From: Akkermansia muciniphila
Lineage (GTDB): Bacteria > Verrucomicrobiota > Verrucomicrobiia > Opitutales > Opitutaceae
DNA: 64,000 bases
Direction of reading: 5' to 3'
Assembly (NCBI GenBank): GCA_945888375.1
Contig: CAMCZZ010000018.1
Location: forward strand, 1 to 64,000
Shown: piece after piece, positions 2,137-33,925 of the stretch
Layout of the letters: each line of letters opens with the position of its first letter
Numbering within the stretch: position 1 is the first letter of the stretch
The notes under the pieces: generated by a model
Told to the model about the DNA's origin: nothing
Database searches by the model: none
What the model saw: only the letters and a program-made list of their open reading frames with translations
Translations under genes and position numbers: made by a program

Positions 2137-3798
2137 ATGCTCCAGACCCTGCGCATCCGAAACCTCGCCCTGCTGGAGGAAGTCTCCCTCGAATTCGAAG
2201 CGGGCTTCACGGTCGTCACCGGCGAGACCGGCGCCGGCAAGAGCATCCTCCTCGGCGCCCTCGGCCTGCTCGCCGGCGAACGGGCCGACAAAACCATCAT
2301 CCGCCAGGGCGCCGTCGCCTGCGAAGTCGAGGCCGCCCTGTATTTCCCCGATCCCTCTGCGATCGACGCCCTGCTAACCGAGCTTGACCTGCCGCCCTGC
2401 GAAGATGGCCAACTCCTGCTCAAACGCAGCCTGCCCCGCGAAAAAGCCCCGCGCATCACCATCAACGGCGGTCTCGCCACTCTTTCCGCCCTGCAACGCC
2501 TCGGCGAACGCTGGATCGATTTCCACCGACCGAGCGAACCCCGCCGCCTGCTGAAGGAATCATGTCAACTCGAGTTGCTCGACCTCTTCGCCCGCGACGA
2601 AGCCGAGCTCGCCGCCTACCACGCGGCCTACCAAGCTTGGCGCGAGCTCCTCGCCGAGCGCGAACGCCTGACCGGCGAAACCCGGCTCTCCCCCGAGCAA
2701 GCCGCCTTCGTCGAAGCCCAGTTGGCCAAACTAGATGCTCTCGACCTCACCGAGGAAGCCGTCGCCACCCTCGAACGCGATTTCTCCCGCCTCAACCGCG
2801 CCCAGGAACTCACCCGCCTCTGCGGCGGACTGGAAAACGGCCTCGCCGGCGAGGACGGCGTTACCTCCCGCCTCGGAGCCCTTCTCCGCGAAGCCCACCA
2901 GCTGGAACAACTCGACCCCGCCAGCCGCCCGCTGACCGAGCGGCTCCACGCCGCCAGCATCGAACTGAATGACCTCGCCGAGGAACTACGCAGCCTCGGC
3001 GGCGAGTATCACTTCGATCCCGAACAGGCCGAGCTTGTTTCCCAATCAATGTCCGCCTGGCTCGACGCCAAACGCCGCCACGGCCCGGATGTCGCCGCCG
3101 TGGCCAGCGCCCGTGATGAACTCAGGCGCCGCTTGGAAATTCAGGGCGACCTCGAAGGCACCCTCGCCCGTCTCGATACGCGTATCGCCGCCGCCGAGAC
3201 CACCGCCCGCACTGCCGCCCGGCCCCTGCGGGCCGCCCGCACCAAAGGCGCCGAAGCCCTCGCCCAGGCCGGAGCCGCCGGCATCGCCCGCCTCGGCTTC
3301 AAGAAAGCCGAGTTCCTCGTGCGCCTCCTCCCACTCGGCGACCTCGGCCCCCAAGGTGATTGCGCCGTCGAGTTCCTCTTCTCCCCCAACGTCGGCGAGG
3401 CCCCCCTGCCCCTCTCCCGCATCGCCTCCAGCGGCGAACTCGCCCGCGTCATGCTCGCCCTGAAAACCGTGCTGGCCGACCTCGATGGCGTGCCCGTGCT
3501 GGTCTTCGACGAGGTCGATGCCAATGTCGGAGGAGAAATCGGCCGCGTGGTCGGCGAACAAATGGCCGGCATCGCCCGCGGCCACCAGGTCCTCTGCGTC
3601 ACTCACCTGCCTCAAGTCGCCGGCCTCGGCGATAACCACCTGCTGGTGGAAAAAGACCAGTCCGGCGAACGTGCCGTGGTGCGCATCGCCCCCATCCACG
3701 GCGAACGCGCCACCCGCATCGGCGAACTGGCCCGCATGCTCGGCGACCGCCACGCCAAGAGCGCCCGTCACCACGCGGAAGAGTTGCTCAAGTCCTGA
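2137..3798 (+). CDS. recN: DNA repair protein RecN
   Basis: A 553-residue SMC-like ATPase of double-strand-break repair, the same length as typical RecN. The start MLQTLRIRNLALLEEVSLEF is the canonical RecN N-terminus, which fixes the ATG at 2137 although the frame stays open upstream. Walker A GETGAGKS is at residues 29-36. A long coiled-coil region occupies the middle (about 190-370). The C-terminal half has the ABC-type signature region (ASSGELARVMLAL) and Walker B VLVFDEVD at about 454-461, followed by ANVGGEIG. It stands alone, between tRNA-Val and the AraC-led pectin locus. I see no LexA box that I can defend. Confidence 0.96.
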   Translation: MLQTLRIRNLALLEEVSLEFEAGFTVVTGETGAGKSILLGALGLLAGERADKTIIRQGAVACEVEAALYFPDPSAIDALLTELDLPPCEDGQLLLKRSLPREKAPRITINGGLATLSALQRLGERWIDFHRPSEPRRLLKESCQLELLDLFARDEAELAAYHAAYQAWRELLAERERLTGETRLSPEQAAFVEAQLAKLDALDLTEEAVATLERDFSRLNRAQELTRLCGGLENGLAGEDGVTSRLGALLREAHQLEQLDPASRPLTERLHAASIELNDLAEELRSLGGEYHFDPEQAELVSQSMSAWLDAKRRHGPDVAAVASARDELRRRLEIQGDLEGTLARLDTRIAAAETTARTAARPLRAARTKGAEALAQAGAAGIARLGFKKAEFLVRLLPLGDLGPQGDCAVEFLFSPNVGEAPLPLSRIASSGELARVMLALKTVLADLDGVPVLVFDEVDANVGGEIGRVVGEQMAGIARGHQVLCVTHLPQVAGLGDNHLLVEKDQSGERAVVRIAPIHGERATRIGELARMLGDRHAKSARHHAEELLKS

Positions 3799-3997
3799 GC
3801 CAGATAACCCCCAGTCAGGCTCGGAGCACCTTGCCTGCCTCGCTTGGAGACTTGCTTTATCCTCCTGTTCTTTTGCCTAAACCCGGTGAAAAAGAGGGCG
3901 GACTGAGAGCGAAAACCGGCAGTTATTCGCCGAGCCCTCCCCTTTGGCCATTCCTCCTAGACCCCCGCCTTTCCTTGCGCATGGTCAGAGCCACCCC

Positions 3998-28793: not shown

Positions 28794-31088
28794 ATGAGCC
28801 ACGACCACGCCACCGCCGTCCTGCCCGTCCCCACCAAACTCGACTACTCCCTGACCGGCGAAAGCGCCACCCGCGCCATCGAGCGAGGCCTCGCCGAGGC
28901 CGAGTGGTATCAATGCCCGGTCCCCCGTGAAACCATGCGTAAACTGCTGGAGCGTCGCGATGGCCCCGCCATCCGCGATACCCTGCTCTGGTTCAGCCTT
29001 CTGCTTGGCTCCGCCTACGCCACCTGGGCGCTCTGGGGCTCCTGGTGGGCAATCCTGCCCTACGCCTTCTACGCCGTGCTCTACGGCTCCACGTCCGACT
29101 CCCGCTGGCACGAGTCCAGCCACGGCACCGCGTTCAAGACCGACTGGATGAACAACGCCCTTTACGAGATCGCCTCGTTCATGGTCATGCGCGAGTCCAC
29201 GCTCTGGCGCTGGTCCCACACCCGCCACCACTCCGACACCATCATTGTCGGGCGCGACCCCGAGATCGCCGTCCCCCGCCCGCCCGACCTGCAGGCCCTT
29301 CTCCTGGGCTTCTTCAACCTCGGCGTTTATCCCGTGTATTTCGGCAAACTCCTCCGGCACTCACTCGGCCGCATGGCCGCGGACGAAAAGACCTTCATCC
29401 CCGAGACGGAGTTTCCCAAAATCTACCGAAAGGCCCGTATCTCCGTCGCCATCTACCTGGCCGTCATCGCCACCGCCCTCGCCACCCACAGCATCCTTCC
29501 CCTGCTGTTTGTCGGCCTGGCCAATATCTTCGGCTCTTGGCTGATGGTCGTCTACGGCCTCACCCAGCACGCCGGCCTCGCCGAGAACGTCCTCGACCAC
29601 CGCCTGAACTGCCGGACCGTCTACCTCAACTTCATCCACCGGTATCTGTATTGGAACATGAACTACCACGTGGAACACCACATGTTCCCGCTCGTTCCCT
29701 ACCATAACCTGCCAAAACTCCACGCCGTCGTGAAAGACGATTGCCCCACGCCCTACCCGGGCCTCCTCGCCGCCTGGCGCGAGATCATCCCGGCCATCCT
29801 GCGTCAGGTCAAAGACCCCGCCTACCACGTGAAACGCGTGCTCCCCGCGCCCCAGACCCGCGCCTCCGGACCCTCCGCCGGACGCCGCGCCGGCGACGCC
29901 AAGCCGGACGCCGACGGCTGGCTCGAGATCTGCGCCGCCGCCGACCTCGGACCCGCCGACGTCATCCGCTTCGACCACGGCAAAAAAACCTACGCCCTCT
30001 ATCGCGACGCCGACCGCATCCTCTATGCCACCGACGGCATCTGCACCCACGGCAACACCCATCTCGCCGACGGCCTGGTGAAGGGAAAGATCATCGAGTG
30101 CCCCAAGCACAACGGCCGCTTCAACCTCACCGATGGCTCTCCCGCCCGCCCCCCCGTCTGCCGCGGCCTCGCCACCTACCCCCTCGAGGAACGCCAGGGC
30201 AGACTCTGGCTGAATGTCGCCAAATCCGGCGGCACCGGCGCCCGCGCCGAAAAAACCTACCAGCTGCGCGTGGTTTCCAACCGCAGCGTGGCCACTTTCA
30301 TCAAGGAACTCGTGCTCGAGCCCCTCGACGCCACCGATAAGATCGGCTTTACCCCCGGCGACTACCTGCAACTCGACATCCCAGCCTACGCCGAGATCCG
30401 CTTTGCCGAGTTCGAAATCCCCGAACCCTACGCATCCGTCTGGCGCAACCAGCACGTTTTCGACCTCGTCGCCCGCAACCCCGGGTCCGGGCGCCGCAAC
30501 AACTACTCCCTCGCCTCCAACCAAAGCTCCGAGCGCGTCCTCCGCTTCAATGTCCGCATCGCCACCCCGCCCCCCGGCCAGGCCTGCCCTCCCGGCGTCG
30601 GTTCCGCCTACATTTTCAGCCTGAAACCCGGCGATACCGTCACCGCCATCGGCCCTTTCGGCGACTTCCACCCCAAGCCCACCCAGCGAGAGATGGTCTA
30701 TATCGGCGGCGGCGCCGGCATGGCCCCGCTCCGCGCCCATCTTTCGTGGCTCTTCGAAACCGAAAACACCGCCCGCCGCGTCTCCTTCTGGTATGGCGCA
30801 CGCTCACGGCAGGAAATCTTCTATGAGGACTATTTCGCCAGCCTCGCCGCCCGCCACCAGAACTTCGCCTTCCACCTCGCCCTGTCCTCCCCCCTGCCCG
30901 AGGACAACTGGACCGGCCATACCGGCTTCATCCACGATGTCGTCTTGGAAAAACATCTACGCGCCCACACCAATCCCCAAGCTGTCGAGTATTACCTCTG
31001 CGGCCCTCCCCTGATGATCAAGGCCTGCGTCAAAGTCCTCTCCGACCTCGGCGTCCCCACCCACCAGATCGCCTACGACGAATTCTGA
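28794..31088 (+). CDS. three-part fusion oxygenase: desaturase/MocD-type di-iron domain + Rieske ferredoxin + NqrF-type NADH reductase
   Basis: A 764-residue single chain. Part 1 (about 1-350) is a membrane fatty-acid-desaturase/hydroxylase domain with membrane segments at about 60-98, 165-185 and 215-258 and histidine boxes H106ESSH110, H142TRHH146 and H292VEHH296; WHESSHGTAF resembles AlkB/MocD hydrocarbon oxygenases. Part 2 (about 373-477) is a Rieske ferredoxin with C417-T-H419 and C436-P-K-H439. Part 3 (about 485-764) matches the FAD/NADH half of NqrF (NNYSLASN, GPFGDFHP, YIGGGAGMAPLRAHL, FWYGARSRQEIFYEDY, YLCGPP), without NqrF's membrane helix and plant-type 2Fe-2S domain. The chain therefore contains the whole path NADH-FAD-2Fe2S-di-iron and is probably a self-sufficient hydroxylase or demethylase. 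The substrate is unknown. Separate mocD/mocE/mocF genes in rhizobia form the nearest described system. A TIM-barrel isomerase gene follows after 57 bases. Confidence 0.9.
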   Translation: MSHDHATAVLPVPTKLDYSLTGESATRAIERGLAEAEWYQCPVPRETMRKLLERRDGPAIRDTLLWFSLLLGSAYATWALWGSWWAILPYAFYAVLYGSTSDSRWHESSHGTAFKTDWMNNALYEIASFMVMRESTLWRWSHTRHHSDTIIVGRDPEIAVPRPPDLQALLLGFFNLGVYPVYFGKLLRHSLGRMAADEKTFIPETEFPKIYRKARISVAIYLAVIATALATHSILPLLFVGLANIFGSWLMVVYGLTQHAGLAENVLDHRLNCRTVYLNFIHRYLYWNMNYHVEHHMFPLVPYHNLPKLHAVVKDDCPTPYPGLLAAWREIIPAILRQVKDPAYHVKRVLPAPQTRASGPSAGRRAGDAKPDADGWLEICAAADLGPADVIRFDHGKKTYALYRDADRILYATDGICTHGNTHLADGLVKGKIIECPKHNGRFNLTDGSPARPPVCRGLATYPLEERQGRLWLNVAKSGGTGARAEKTYQLRVVSNRSVATFIKELVLEPLDATDKIGFTPGDYLQLDIPAYAEIRFAEFEIPEPYASVWRNQHVFDLVARNPGSGRRNNYSLASNQSSERVLRFNVRIATPPPGQACPPGVGSAYIFSLKPGDTVTAIGPFGDFHPKPTQREMVYIGGGAGMAPLRAHLSWLFETENTARRVSFWYGARSRQEIFYEDYFASLAARHQNFAFHLALSSPLPEDNWTGHTGFIHDVVLEKHLRAHTNPQAVEYYLCGPPLMIKACVKVLSDLGVPTHQIAYDEF

Positions 31089-31145: not shown

Positions 31146-32003
31146 ATGCCTGCCCTGCCTCCCCCCCGCCTCGTGCAAATGGCCGCTCTCTGGTCCCTCT
31201 GGGACTACCCCTCCGCCAAGGCCGAGTGGTCCCTCGAAAAGAAGTTCGCCGCCATTAAAGCCGCCGGTTTCGACGGCATCGCCACCGCCATGAACCCGGA
31301 ACTCGGCAAACTCGCCGAGAAACACGGGCTTTGCTCCGTCGGCTATATTTCCTCCGGCAAACCCGCCGACTTCCGCCGCCTCATCCAGGAAAACCGCGAC
31401 GGCGGCGCGAAACGCATCAACGTCCAGCTCGCCTACCACGATACCCCGGTCGAAAAAGGCACCGCCCTCGCCATCCGGCTCGTCGAGCTTGGTGAAAAAC
31501 TCGGCTGCCCTTGCGATATCGAAGTCCACCGCAACACCTGCACCGAGACGCCCGAAAAAACCTACGCCATCGCCGCCGCCTTCCGGCAAGCCACCGGGAA
31601 ACTCATCCCCCTGACTTGGGATTTCTCCCACGTCTCCGTCGTCAAACACCTCGAGCCACCCTACTGGGAACGCCTGCTGGTCGCCCCCGAGCTCGTCCAG
31701 CACTCCCGGCACTTCCACTTCCGCCCCTTCAACGGCCACCACTGCCAGATCCCCGTCACCGACGGGTCCGGAAAACGTTCAGTCGAGTTCAACCAGTGGC
31801 TGCCCTTCCTCGAGAAAACTCTCGAAATGGCGCTCTCCGCCAAAACCGCCGGCGGCGACTACTATGTCGTCCCTGAAATGGGCCCTGCCCGAGGCGGCTA
31901 TAACTTCGCCCAACTCCCCAATAGCTGGGAGGACGCCCAAGTCCTGCGCGGCATCATCGCGAAAGCGTGGAAAAAAGCCCTCGCCGCCCGGGCCAAAGCC
32001 TAG
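31146..32003 (+). CDS. sugar phosphate isomerase/epimerase-like TIM-barrel protein
   Basis: A 285-residue protein of the xylose-isomerase-like/AP endonuclease 2 fold, the group that includes IolE, IolH, MocC and hydroxypyruvate isomerase. The N-terminus has the barrel-opening pattern SLEKKFAAIKAAGFDGI. Predicted metal ligands lie in CDIEVHRNT, TWDFSHVS, HFHFRP and VVPEMGP. No signal peptide. It is 57 bases after the fusion oxygenase and on the same strand, so the two are probably one transcript; the pair recalls the mocC/mocDEF rhizopine genes. The substrate cannot be assigned. An alternative start at the internal ATG 31179 (MAALWSLWDY) would fit the fold as well. Confidence 0.82.
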   Translation: MPALPPPRLVQMAALWSLWDYPSAKAEWSLEKKFAAIKAAGFDGIATAMNPELGKLAEKHGLCSVGYISSGKPADFRRLIQENRDGGAKRINVQLAYHDTPVEKGTALAIRLVELGEKLGCPCDIEVHRNTCTETPEKTYAIAAAFRQATGKLIPLTWDFSHVSVVKHLEPPYWERLLVAPELVQHSRHFHFRPFNGHHCQIPVTDGSGKRSVEFNQWLPFLEKTLEMALSAKTAGGDYYVVPEMGPARGGYNFAQLPNSWEDAQVLRGIIAKAWKKALAARAKA

Positions 32004-32899: not shown

Positions 32900-33925
32900 A
32901 TGGATCTCGCCACGTTGCTCGAAGCCCTGCGCACCGGTCAGGATATACCCTCCACGCCGGCCACGACGGGGCACGCCCTCTGGCTGACCCGCAATGCATC
33001 CGGCAACACCGCCCTGCACGTGGCCGCCCGCAATGGCCGTCTGCAACATATCCCGCCCGAGCTCCTCACGCCGGAATTTTTTACAATCAAAAATCAGGCC
33101 GGCTACACCCCGCTACACCGTGCGTTTGAATACGTCGCCGCACCGTCCGCCCTCCCTCCCCGGCTGCTGCTCCACGACTTGCTGGCGATTACCAGCAACG
33201 CCGGCTTTTCGAGCTACCATATCGCCGCCGCCCACGGCCATCTGACCCTTCTCTCGCACTCCATTCTCACCCCGGAACTCCTCACCATCCGCACCCACTT
33301 GGGGAACACCTTCCTCCACGAAGCCGCCGAAACCGGGCAACTCGAAGCCATCCCGCCGGTATTCCTCAACACCGCCGCCTTCGCCCTCGCCAACCTCACC
33401 GGGGAGACCCCCCTCCACACCGCGGCCTTGAACGGCCACCTCGCCCAAATTCCTCGCGCCCTGCTCACCCGCGAAGCCCTGCTCACCCGCACCTCCGCCG
33501 GCGATACCGTGCTCCACGCCGCCGCGCTCGCCCGCCACCTCGACCACATCCCGCCCGAACACCTCGTGCACGATACCCTCGTGCTCGCCAGCAAAGCCGG
33601 CTTCACCGTCCTGCACGCCGCCGCCGAGACTGGGCAGCTCCGCGCCATCCCCCGGTCCGCCCTCACCAGCGAGCTCCTCGCCACGCGTAACGACCATGGC
33701 GACAGCCCTTTGCATGCCGCCGCCGCCGGCGGGCACGTGGACCAGATACCGGTCGCCCTGCTCAGCCCGGAACTGCTCGCCCAGCGCAACTACGACGGCT
33801 TGACGCCGATCGACGTCGCCCGCCACGCCGGGCACCAGAGCCAGATTCCCGAGCACCTTTACCCCCGGGAAACCGGCATTCTAGCCCGCCTCGGCGCCGC
33901 CCTGGGCCTGCGCAAGACGCGCTGA
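32900..33925 (+). CDS. ankyrin-repeat protein
   Basis: A 341-residue protein made almost wholly of about nine ankyrin-like repeats of roughly 33 residues, each with a variant of GNTALHVAARNGRLQHIPPELLTPE. Repeats are regular: TALHVAARNGRL, TPLHRAFEY, SYHIAAAHGHL, TFLHEAAETGQL, TPLHTAALNGHL, TVLHAAALARHL, TVLHAAAETGQL, SPLHAAAAGGHV, TPIDVARHAGH. No signal peptide or membrane segment, so it is probably a cytosolic binding scaffold. The conserved 'IP...LLTPELL' extension in each unit resembles the repeat form found in some bacterial ankyrin effectors and housekeeping proteins. The partner is unknown. It is divergent from a receiver-only response regulator and convergent with hemW. Confidence 0.88.
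   Translation: MDLATLLEALRTGQDIPSTPATTGHALWLTRNASGNTALHVAARNGRLQHIPPELLTPEFFTIKNQAGYTPLHRAFEYVAAPSALPPRLLLHDLLAITSNAGFSSYHIAAAHGHLTLLSHSILTPELLTIRTHLGNTFLHEAAETGQLEAIPPVFLNTAAFALANLTGETPLHTAALNGHLAQIPRALLTREALLTRTSAGDTVLHAAALARHLDHIPPEHLVHDTLVLASKAGFTVLHAAAETGQLRAIPRSALTSELLATRNDHGDSPLHAAAAGGHVDQIPVALLSPELLAQRNYDGLTPIDVARHAGHQSQIPEHLYPRETGILARLGAALGLRKTR

Follow-up and report, generated by a model that had tools for sequence, protein, structure and literature searches.

Catabolism of L-3-O-methyl-scyllo-inosamine requires MocDEF (PMC10107442, PMC3538637). In rhizobia, these are three separate proteins: an oxygenase, a ferredoxin, and a reductase. Here, we describe a gene that unites comparable domains in one chain. 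It lies within the first 64,000 nucleotides of contig CAMCZZ010000018.1 (assembly GCA_945888375.1, deposited as Akkermansia muciniphila), the whole of which we refer to as the window. The encoded protein consists of an N-terminal membrane di-iron domain of the desaturase type, a central Rieske domain, and a C-terminal reductase of the kind found in NqrF, which binds flavin adenine dinucleotide (FAD) and the reduced nicotinamide cofactor NADH.

The fusion resembles the rhizobial system in that residues 1-476 correspond to neighbouring MocD and MocE genes, and in that genes for triosephosphate isomerase (TIM) barrel proteins and Gfo/Idh/MocA proteins are found nearby in some loci of both (Acidiphilium, genome G010). 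It differs in being one chain where MocDEF is three, and in carrying an NqrF-type reductase where MocF is of the Pyr_redox_2/Reductase_C type. In addition, no MocB- or MocR-like gene was present among 18 window neighbours scanned. The Rieske part of the fusion falls below the cut-off of the family model TIGR02377 (116.1 bits, against a cut-off of 136.15). With NqrF, the fusion shares the FAD/NADH half and a terminal phenylalanine, which is present in 53 of 53 aligned copies. Unlike NqrF, however, it is without the membrane helix and the plant-type 2Fe-2S domain, in the place of which the Rieske domain is found, and no nqrABCDEF locus was recognized around it among the 18 window neighbours scanned.

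Membrane di-iron enzymes with fused electron carriers have been described before. One of these, ferr_ferrR_AlkB, which was reported to be active, joins three domains: a ferredoxin, a ferredoxin reductase, and AlkB (PMC8918992). As in the present protein, one chain contains a class III membrane di-iron hydroxylase together with its two electron carriers; these are N-terminal to AlkB, whereas the Rieske domain and NqrF-type reductase of the fusion are C-terminal to a MocD-type enzyme. This self-sufficient fused AlkB is the precedent for the present fusion. Cytochrome b5-fused membrane desaturases also have an electron donor joined to a membrane di-iron enzyme, in the form of a b5 heme domain, and the passage of the AlkB review that covers them mentions no reductase in the same chain (PMC8918992). 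Ferredoxin-fused desaturases are given in the same review, with reference to a 2001 paper, as not having been found (PMC8918992).

The arrangement also recalls Rieske oxygenases, in which a Rieske cluster is the last carrier ahead of a non-heme iron, but the catalytic domain differs. A 2025 review states, in the section concerned, that no self-sufficient Rieske oxygenase system has been identified (PMC12445004). With respect to chemistry, a P450 from marine Flavobacteriia catalyzes the oxidative demethylation of 6-O-methyl-D-galactose to the free sugar and formaldehyde (PMC10033563), which resembles the O-demethylation that we propose for the fusion. This P450 is a heme protein with a separate ferredoxin and reductase, however, and is unrelated to the fusion. 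No description of a desaturase-Rieske-NqrF fusion was found in the open-licence literature, which is no proof of absence. That literature likewise yielded no characterized protein of the same architecture. The first-pass annotation of the window, made from the sequence alone, had singled out this gene as an apparently self-sufficient membrane oxygenase. Its reading is supported: of the two findings that it named as contrary, many characterized proteins of this architecture and a reductase placed far from NqrF, neither was obtained.

Architecture and conservation of the fused protein

The features of the fusion gene, in window coordinates, are as follows.

28794-31088, plus strand: whole fusion gene, an intact open reading frame (ORF) of 764 amino acids, with its ATG at 28794 and its stop codon ending at 31088
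29040-29759, plus strand: membrane di-iron desaturase/hydroxylase domain, residues 83-322 (Pfam span; PF00487, E 8.8e-36)
29109-29123, plus strand: histidine box 1, H106-x3-H110 (from the translation; invariant in 53/53)
29217-29231, plus strand: histidine box 2, H142-x2-H145-H146 (from the translation; invariant in 53/53)
29667-29681, plus strand: histidine box 3, H292-x2-H295-H296 (from the translation; invariant in 53/53)
29919-30182, plus strand: Rieske [2Fe-2S] domain, residues 376-463, with ligands C417/H419/C436/H439 (PF00355, E 1.4e-15)
30252-31085, plus strand: NqrF-type FAD/NADH reductase domain, residues 487-764 (from TIGR01941, structures, and trees)

The desaturase domain, which contains all three histidine boxes, scored 124.4 bits against PF00487 (gathering score 29.7), and the region resembling MocD is wider than the Pfam span, covering residues ~12-355. 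Hydrophobic segments are present in the protein. None of the Pfam families matched was the mononuclear-iron catalytic domain of ring-hydroxylating Rieske oxygenases; the catalytic part is PF00487. The reductase half was recognized by Pfam as FAD_binding_6 (residues 540-625, E 7e-6) and NAD_binding_1 (residues 637-746, E 1.8e-17), and by the NCBIfam nqrF model TIGR01941 with 328 bits (cut-off 295), where residues 487-764 correspond to model positions 128-403 of 405. As this match begins at position 128, the NqrF helix and plant-type 2Fe-2S domain, which make up the first 127 positions of the model, are missing. A sequence search of solved structures returned the FAD domain of Klebsiella NqrF (7qty) as the closest match (E 1.7e-83), with further NqrF chains at weaker E-values, while the best solved relatives of the Rieske part were the ferredoxins of carbazole and naphthalene dioxygenase. 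A PADLOC scan found nothing, and promoter and terminator scans gave no plus-strand site ahead of the fusion gene.

The first-pass annotation had read this stretch as a single chain of desaturase, Rieske domain, and NqrF-type reductase, and was exact as to coordinates, strand, and length. Its three histidine boxes (H106-H110, H142-H146, H292-H296) are all present, with H259 in addition, as is the intact Rieske motif, which is invariant in all 53 aligned sequences. Equally, its claims that the FAD/NADH module covers the whole reductase half of NqrF, and that a Rieske domain replaces the missing N-terminal parts, agree with the extent of the TIGR01941 match.

The alignment of 53 sequences comprises the window copy and 52 copies picked, for clean frames and diversity, from 80 loci in a collection of named genomes. 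Invariant throughout are 9 histidines (H106, H110, H142, H145, H146, H259, H292, H295, and H296), as well as G638, G640, G642, P645, the triplet C736-G737-P738, and the terminal F764. Two stretches between the domains are variable (residues ~351-370 and 476-490).

Besides the window's own genome, nine genomes in a set of 57 related ones contained ten full-length relatives of 749-764 residues, with 64-92% identity. The 80 loci, which are the best 80 of 576 and as such no measure of prevalence, match from residue 17 or earlier up to residues 753-764, at 60-92% identity over the best segment. The carriers among them belong to the Verrucomicrobiota, Acidobacteriota, Planctomycetota, Bacteroidota (Winogradskyella, Mucilaginibacter), Chloroflexi, and others, and 77 of the 80 locus titles state that the sequence is metagenome-assembled. 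Carriers with records of another kind include Winogradskyella sediminis DSM 28134 and Acidobacteriaceae bacterium KBS 89. The window and 79 of these loci each have a fused ORF; of the 80 ORFs, 76 are at least 740 amino acids long, and broken frames are the probable cause of the shorter ones (L091, L093, L105, and L087). Since locus L113 has no single fused ORF, neighbour positions reported below are based on 79 loci and the window, and cluster counts on all 81.

Within the phylum of the window, a survey of 288 genomes gave 23 fusion-like matches above the cut-off of the NqrF model in 19 genomes (model start 122-133, frame of at least 751 amino acids; counted by hand). For 8 of these, the fusion was verified over the full chain, and the others are judged by frame length. 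Two further genomes had one fusion-like match each, either below the NqrF cut-off or in broken frames. In the phylum of Winogradskyella, the fusion was found in 2 of 247 genomes, one being the genome taken as the centre of that survey.

All three domains are under purifying selection. Ratios of nonsynonymous to synonymous substitution rates (dN/dS) between the window copy and four relatives were 0.08-0.21 for the desaturase, 0.08-0.27 for the Rieske domain, and 0.14-0.28 for the reductase, compared with 0.42-1.18 for the linker of 17 residues. In addition, no internal stop codons occur in the ten full-length relatives, and the 53 translated copies are likewise open throughout. A chance fusion or an assembly artefact is thereby ruled out.

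The full-length AlphaFold2 model had a mean predicted local distance difference test score (pLDDT) of 81.7 and a predicted template modelling score (pTM) of 0.59. Its reductase part superimposed on solved NqrF FAD domains with a Z-score of 40 and a root-mean-square deviation (rmsd) of 1.1 Å over 278 residues. Because a structure search with the whole model listed reductase-type chains, the desaturase part was folded alone (pLDDT 75, pTM 0.74). Its best fold matches were chains of the chloroplast Orf2971-FtsHi and Ycf2-FtsHi complexes (8xks_K and 8xqw_M, Z 16.6 and 16.5), followed by AlkB of Fontimonas thermophila (Z 9.3-9.4, rmsd ~5 Å over 267-269 residues, Foldseek E 0.05). As Z-scores under ~13 can arise by chance for helical models, the AlkB match is suggestive only; all remaining matches listed had Z-scores of 4.6 or lower. 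A profile of the desaturase part, searched against the sequences of solved structures, gave two matches (E 0.66 and 0.82), which we took as chance.

Descent of the three domains

The 40 best plasmid records contain adjacent genes that match residues 1-476 of the fusion at 51-57% identity, and weaker records go down to 34%. Where annotated, these genes encode a fatty acid desaturase and a MocE-family ferredoxin, mostly in Rhizobium and Sinorhizobium, but also in Acidiphilium. None of the plasmid records covers 80% of the fusion protein. The desaturase part of the window copy is 52-58% identical to ten MocD proteins, against 30-36% to five other desaturases from related genomes, and the Rieske domain is 40-51% identical to ten MocE proteins. 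In phylogenetic trees, which took in 19 to 37 fused copies, 37 fused desaturase parts formed one clade (support 100) nested among nine MocD sequences, and 36 fused Rieske domains formed one clade (support 99) among MocE proteins. The first two domains thus descend from the MocD/MocE family.

The sister of the fused desaturase clade is an unfused copy from genome G052 (support 85). There, separate MocD and MocE genes are followed by a TIM-barrel gene (L031, 11090-13333), and these split genes possibly represent a pre-fusion state. The observation that the rhizobial proteins are separate, made in the first-pass annotation, was borne out at the rhizobial loci. In Rhizobium leguminosarum RCAM2802, MocD, MocE, and an FAD oxidoreductase are encoded among iolE, two Gfo/Idh/MocA genes, and sugar ATP-binding cassette (ABC) transporter genes. 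In R. etli, the gene after MocD and MocE encodes a protein with Pyr_redox_2 and Reductase_C domains, which is a flavoprotein family other than that of the fused reductase. As MocF belongs to this other family, a plain fusion of MocD, MocE, and MocF is ruled out, and the protein is best described as MocD and MocE joined with a replaced reductase. Separately, in several alphaproteobacteria a gene resembling ketopantoate hydroxymethyltransferase follows MocD and MocE (L035, 11671-12486; L167, 8454-9281; L168, 8410-9207), a label that was checked with Pfam in one of these genes.

For the reductase, the first-pass annotation had proposed recruitment from the NqrF line, and our trees place the fused clade next to or among NqrF. 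Identity of the window reductase amounts to 41-55% with NqrF, to 30-35% with six NqrF paralogues that have a ferredoxin part of their own, and to 25-27% with five other reductases of the ferredoxin-NADP reductase (FNR) type. Fused reductases formed one clade, with 99% support in the Shimodaira-Hasegawa-like approximate likelihood ratio test for 37 sequences and 100/100 for 19. In a tree with the paralogues as outgroup, this clade fell beside or among true NqrF; NqrF formed one side of a branch with a support of 11 and in 20% of bootstrap trees. When the tree was rooted on distant FNRs, the root fell among the fused sequences, where the branches were very long, which speaks against assuming a rooting. 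The grouping of all fused reductases in one clade beside NqrF points to a single recruitment.

Full-length NqrF was not found in the window's own genome, nor in 19 of 22 carrier genomes, nor, by hand count, in 13 of the 19 carrier genomes from the phylum survey; the others hold both. The sets of 22, 26, and 28 carrier genomes used here and below were hand-picked among carriers, and are mostly metagenome-assembled and possibly incomplete. No match to an Nqr family was found among the 18 neighbouring ORFs scanned, which were taken from ~2-41 kb of the window and do not include every gene. Among the listed matches over the NqrF cut-off in the 288 genomes, 43 start at model position 1-4, two of these being truncated (counted by hand), 23 are the fusion-like matches, and three are paralogues that contain a ferredoxin part themselves and passed the cut-off only together with neighbouring pieces. 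None of these listed matches was a lone reductase half in a short frame, which rules out, as a general rule, that the reductase is the leftover of a lost Nqr operon. One fusion and one reductase swap would best explain the clades and the distribution of NqrF. One further full-length NqrF match was found in an open frame of 773 amino acids (G110:C11:289972-291174); this is possibly another NqrF fusion, or merely a long frame.

These results carry a practical warning. Because the nqrF model passes its curated cut-off on the fusion, automatic annotation can name a subunit of the sodium-pumping NADH:quinone oxidoreductase where none was found.

Proposed reaction, partner genes, and alternatives

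We predict that the fusion is a self-sufficient, NADH-dependent O-demethylase of methylated sugars or cyclitols that acts much like MocDEF, and hold this prediction with about as much confidence as doubt. It would be a membrane-bound monooxygenase of the MocD (rhizopine oxygenase-like) branch within the desaturase superfamily. From what is known of the chemistry of the three domain families, we predict the following electron path. NADH would reduce the FAD of the C-terminal module, from which electrons would move one at a time to the central Rieske cluster. The cluster would then hand them to the histidine-bound di-iron site of the membrane-embedded N-terminal domain, where O2 would be activated and a C-H bond of the substrate hydroxylated. 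As substrate, an O-methylated sugar would be the most likely class, or else a compound resembling a cyclitol; once hydroxylated at the methyl carbon, it would yield formaldehyde and the free sugar, which an adjacent TIM-barrel isomerase or epimerase and other sugar enzymes could then process. We favour demethylation because MocDEF is needed for methyl-inosamine catabolism, because many of the neighbouring genes handle sugars, and because methyl-transfer genes are over-represented among them. Of 28 carrier genomes, only 2 contain an IolD match above the cut-off, and we therefore prefer a methylated sugar to a methylated inositol.

If active, the protein would be a membrane di-iron oxygenase that needs just NADH and O2, and a useful catalyst. 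It would represent a natural self-sufficient system wired via a Rieske cluster, and the passage of electrons from flavin through Rieske cluster to di-iron site could be studied within one chain. The partner of an NqrF flavin domain would here be a Rieske cluster in place of the plant-type ferredoxin. The fusion may also explain how hard-to-grow soil and lake bacteria remove methyl groups from sugars.

The gene immediately downstream is a probable operon partner:

31146-32003, plus strand: TIM-barrel gene of the xylose-isomerase-like kind, 285 amino acids, 57 bp after the fusion gene

By profile, its product is related to weak xylose-isomerase-like TIM-barrel matches, and six residues (E126, H128, D159, H162, H191, and E244) are invariant across five aligned members of its group. 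This group and a related one are represented near the fusion in 41 of the 80 loci, always on the same strand (41/41) and in 38 loci within 400 bp; as gene starts at these loci were set mechanically, small overlaps mean little. The profile of the larger group also detected the TIM-barrel gene after the unfused MocD and MocE genes of G052 (1e-75) and the one after the Acidiphilium MocDEF genes (1e-49), whose product is 25% identical to that of the window gene. Among 12 TIM-barrel matches of more than 200 bits in the 57 related genomes, 7 adjoin the fusion or a fragment of it, one lies 2.2 kb from a fragment, one adjoins the split genes of G052, and three are found elsewhere. Weaker matches, down to 20 bits, occur elsewhere in many of these genomes.

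Other recurrent neighbours across the 81 loci include AraC regulators (groups of 18 and 6), aldose 1-epimerases (16), methyltransferases of the URO-D/MtaA-like type (16), sugar transporters of the major facilitator superfamily (7), aldo/keto reductases (5), further TIM barrels (5), RhaT (4), and dehydrogenases (4 and 4). Each of these labels is based on one or two scanned members of the group, and the loci are related, so that the counts are not of independent events. In 26 carrier genomes, 199 URO-D matches were found in ~113 Mb, 65 of them in two genomes. From this background, about one would be predicted in 80 flanks of 8 kb, where 16 were seen. The contrast is a rough one, as the genes are clustered and the two genome sets share only some members; methyl-transfer genes are nonetheless over-represented beside the fusion. 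In addition, locus L117 contains a gene for an MtgC-like corrinoid protein (3201-3836), along with an FGGY sugar kinase, and a DUF1638 gene lies near the fusion in L119 (7160-7879). Together with the URO-D/MtaA-like genes, these are possible corrinoid demethylation partners of the fusion.

A broader proposal would be that widespread, unrecognized self-sufficient membrane di-iron O-demethylases give Verrucomicrobiota, Acidobacteriota, and others access to methyl-capped plant and algal sugars. They would have arisen in a single fusion that exchanged the rhizobial-type reductase for an NqrF flavin domain partnered with a Rieske cluster, and the corrinoid methyl-transfer genes at some loci would allow the methyl sugar to be opened with or without oxygen. 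We advance this only tentatively, as a possibility that we consider somewhat more doubtful than probable.

Several observations weigh against O-demethylation by the fusion and its proposed partner. Removal of a methyl group by MocDEF is itself a proposal, said to have been published by Bahar in 1998. The unfused locus of G052 showed no reductase gene, in a genome that is 50% complete. Most of each domain appears reliable in the full-length model, but the arrangement of the domains is uncertain, since the pTM is only 0.59. The downstream TIM-barrel gene reached no Pfam family, and no such gene was found in flanks of up to 4 kb at 39 of the 80 loci; moreover, three of its 12 strongest relatives lie away from any fusion found. 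A TIM-barrel gene near mocDEF in R. etli was missed by the group profiles, and its relation to the window gene is not detectable. Reports of TIM-barrel homologues of Msi119 near mocDEF in rhizobia (PMC3538637), and of xylA2 near mocDEF in Pseudomonas syringae (PMC5132102), are therefore treated here as parallels to the partner gene, not as members of its family. Several copies of the fusion have unrelated neighbours, among them FeoB, phosphatidylserine decarboxylase, transketolase, and peptidase S46. The scarcity of IolD, finally, tells against an inositol-type substrate, and rules out the canonical inositol pathway as a general outlet.

Some of the neighbouring genes fit a different substrate. 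The same self-sufficient oxygenase could act on a small polar compound without an O-methyl group, be it sugar-like, amino, or aromatic, by hydroxylating a ring or side chain or by N-demethylation. In locus L084, genes for a proline racemase and an FAD amine-oxidase-type protein lie beyond the TIM-barrel gene, and in Winogradskyella a creatininase-like gene adjoins the fusion. Distant MocD-like genes are accompanied by LysR and ABC genes in Paracoccus, and by molybdopterin oxidoreductases in Pseudohalocynthiibacter, but the proteins of these two genera are just 31-35% identical. Residues 255-316 also gave a short match to the arginine hydroxylase GntB, at 30 bits and far under the cut-off. However, most of the recurrent neighbour groups scanned consist of sugar genes, and methyl-transfer genes are more frequent beside the fusion than expected. 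We therefore regard a substrate of this kind as unlikely, though it deserves serious attention.

A lipid desaturase or hydroxylase with a built-in electron supply, acting on a fatty acyl, sphingolipid, or carotenoid substrate, seems to us distinctly improbable. Membership of PF00487, the spacing of the histidine boxes, the hydrophobic segments, and the presence of AlkB among the fold matches are all in line with such an enzyme, and phosphatidylserine decarboxylase adjoins one copy. Against this, the desaturase part is much closer to MocD (52-58% identity) than to the five other desaturases (30-36%), and no lipid gene was present among the recurrent neighbour groups scanned. Finally, that the reductase end acts mainly as an NADH:quinone or NADH:O2 oxidoreductase, with the desaturase as a membrane anchor, can practically be set aside: the third domain does exceed the curated NqrF cut-off, but all 53 aligned copies retain the nine histidines of the desaturase part, purifying selection acts equally on that part, and NqrF itself is not known to contact quinone directly.

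Flanking genes in the window and elsewhere

In the window, the fusion gene is preceded by a cluster of plus-strand genes for the degradation of pectin side chains (~6344-28596). This cluster encodes glycoside hydrolases (GH) of families GH51, GH35, and GH127, a second GH35, a GH43 arabinanase, a rhamnogalacturonan lyase of family 11, and a GH27 alpha-galactosidase. Its last four genes (GH35, GH43, lyase, and GH27) also lie ahead of the fusion in genomes G011 and G014. We count this setting, and the rhamnosidase domains described next, in favour of a sugar substrate. Across the other loci, 20 large neighbours were present; 3 of the 10 that were scanned contained alpha-L-rhamnosidase domains, and others included a transketolase, a peptidase S46, and an ABC transporter. 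Downstream of the probable operon, positions 32900-33925 of the window encode an ankyrin-repeat protein.

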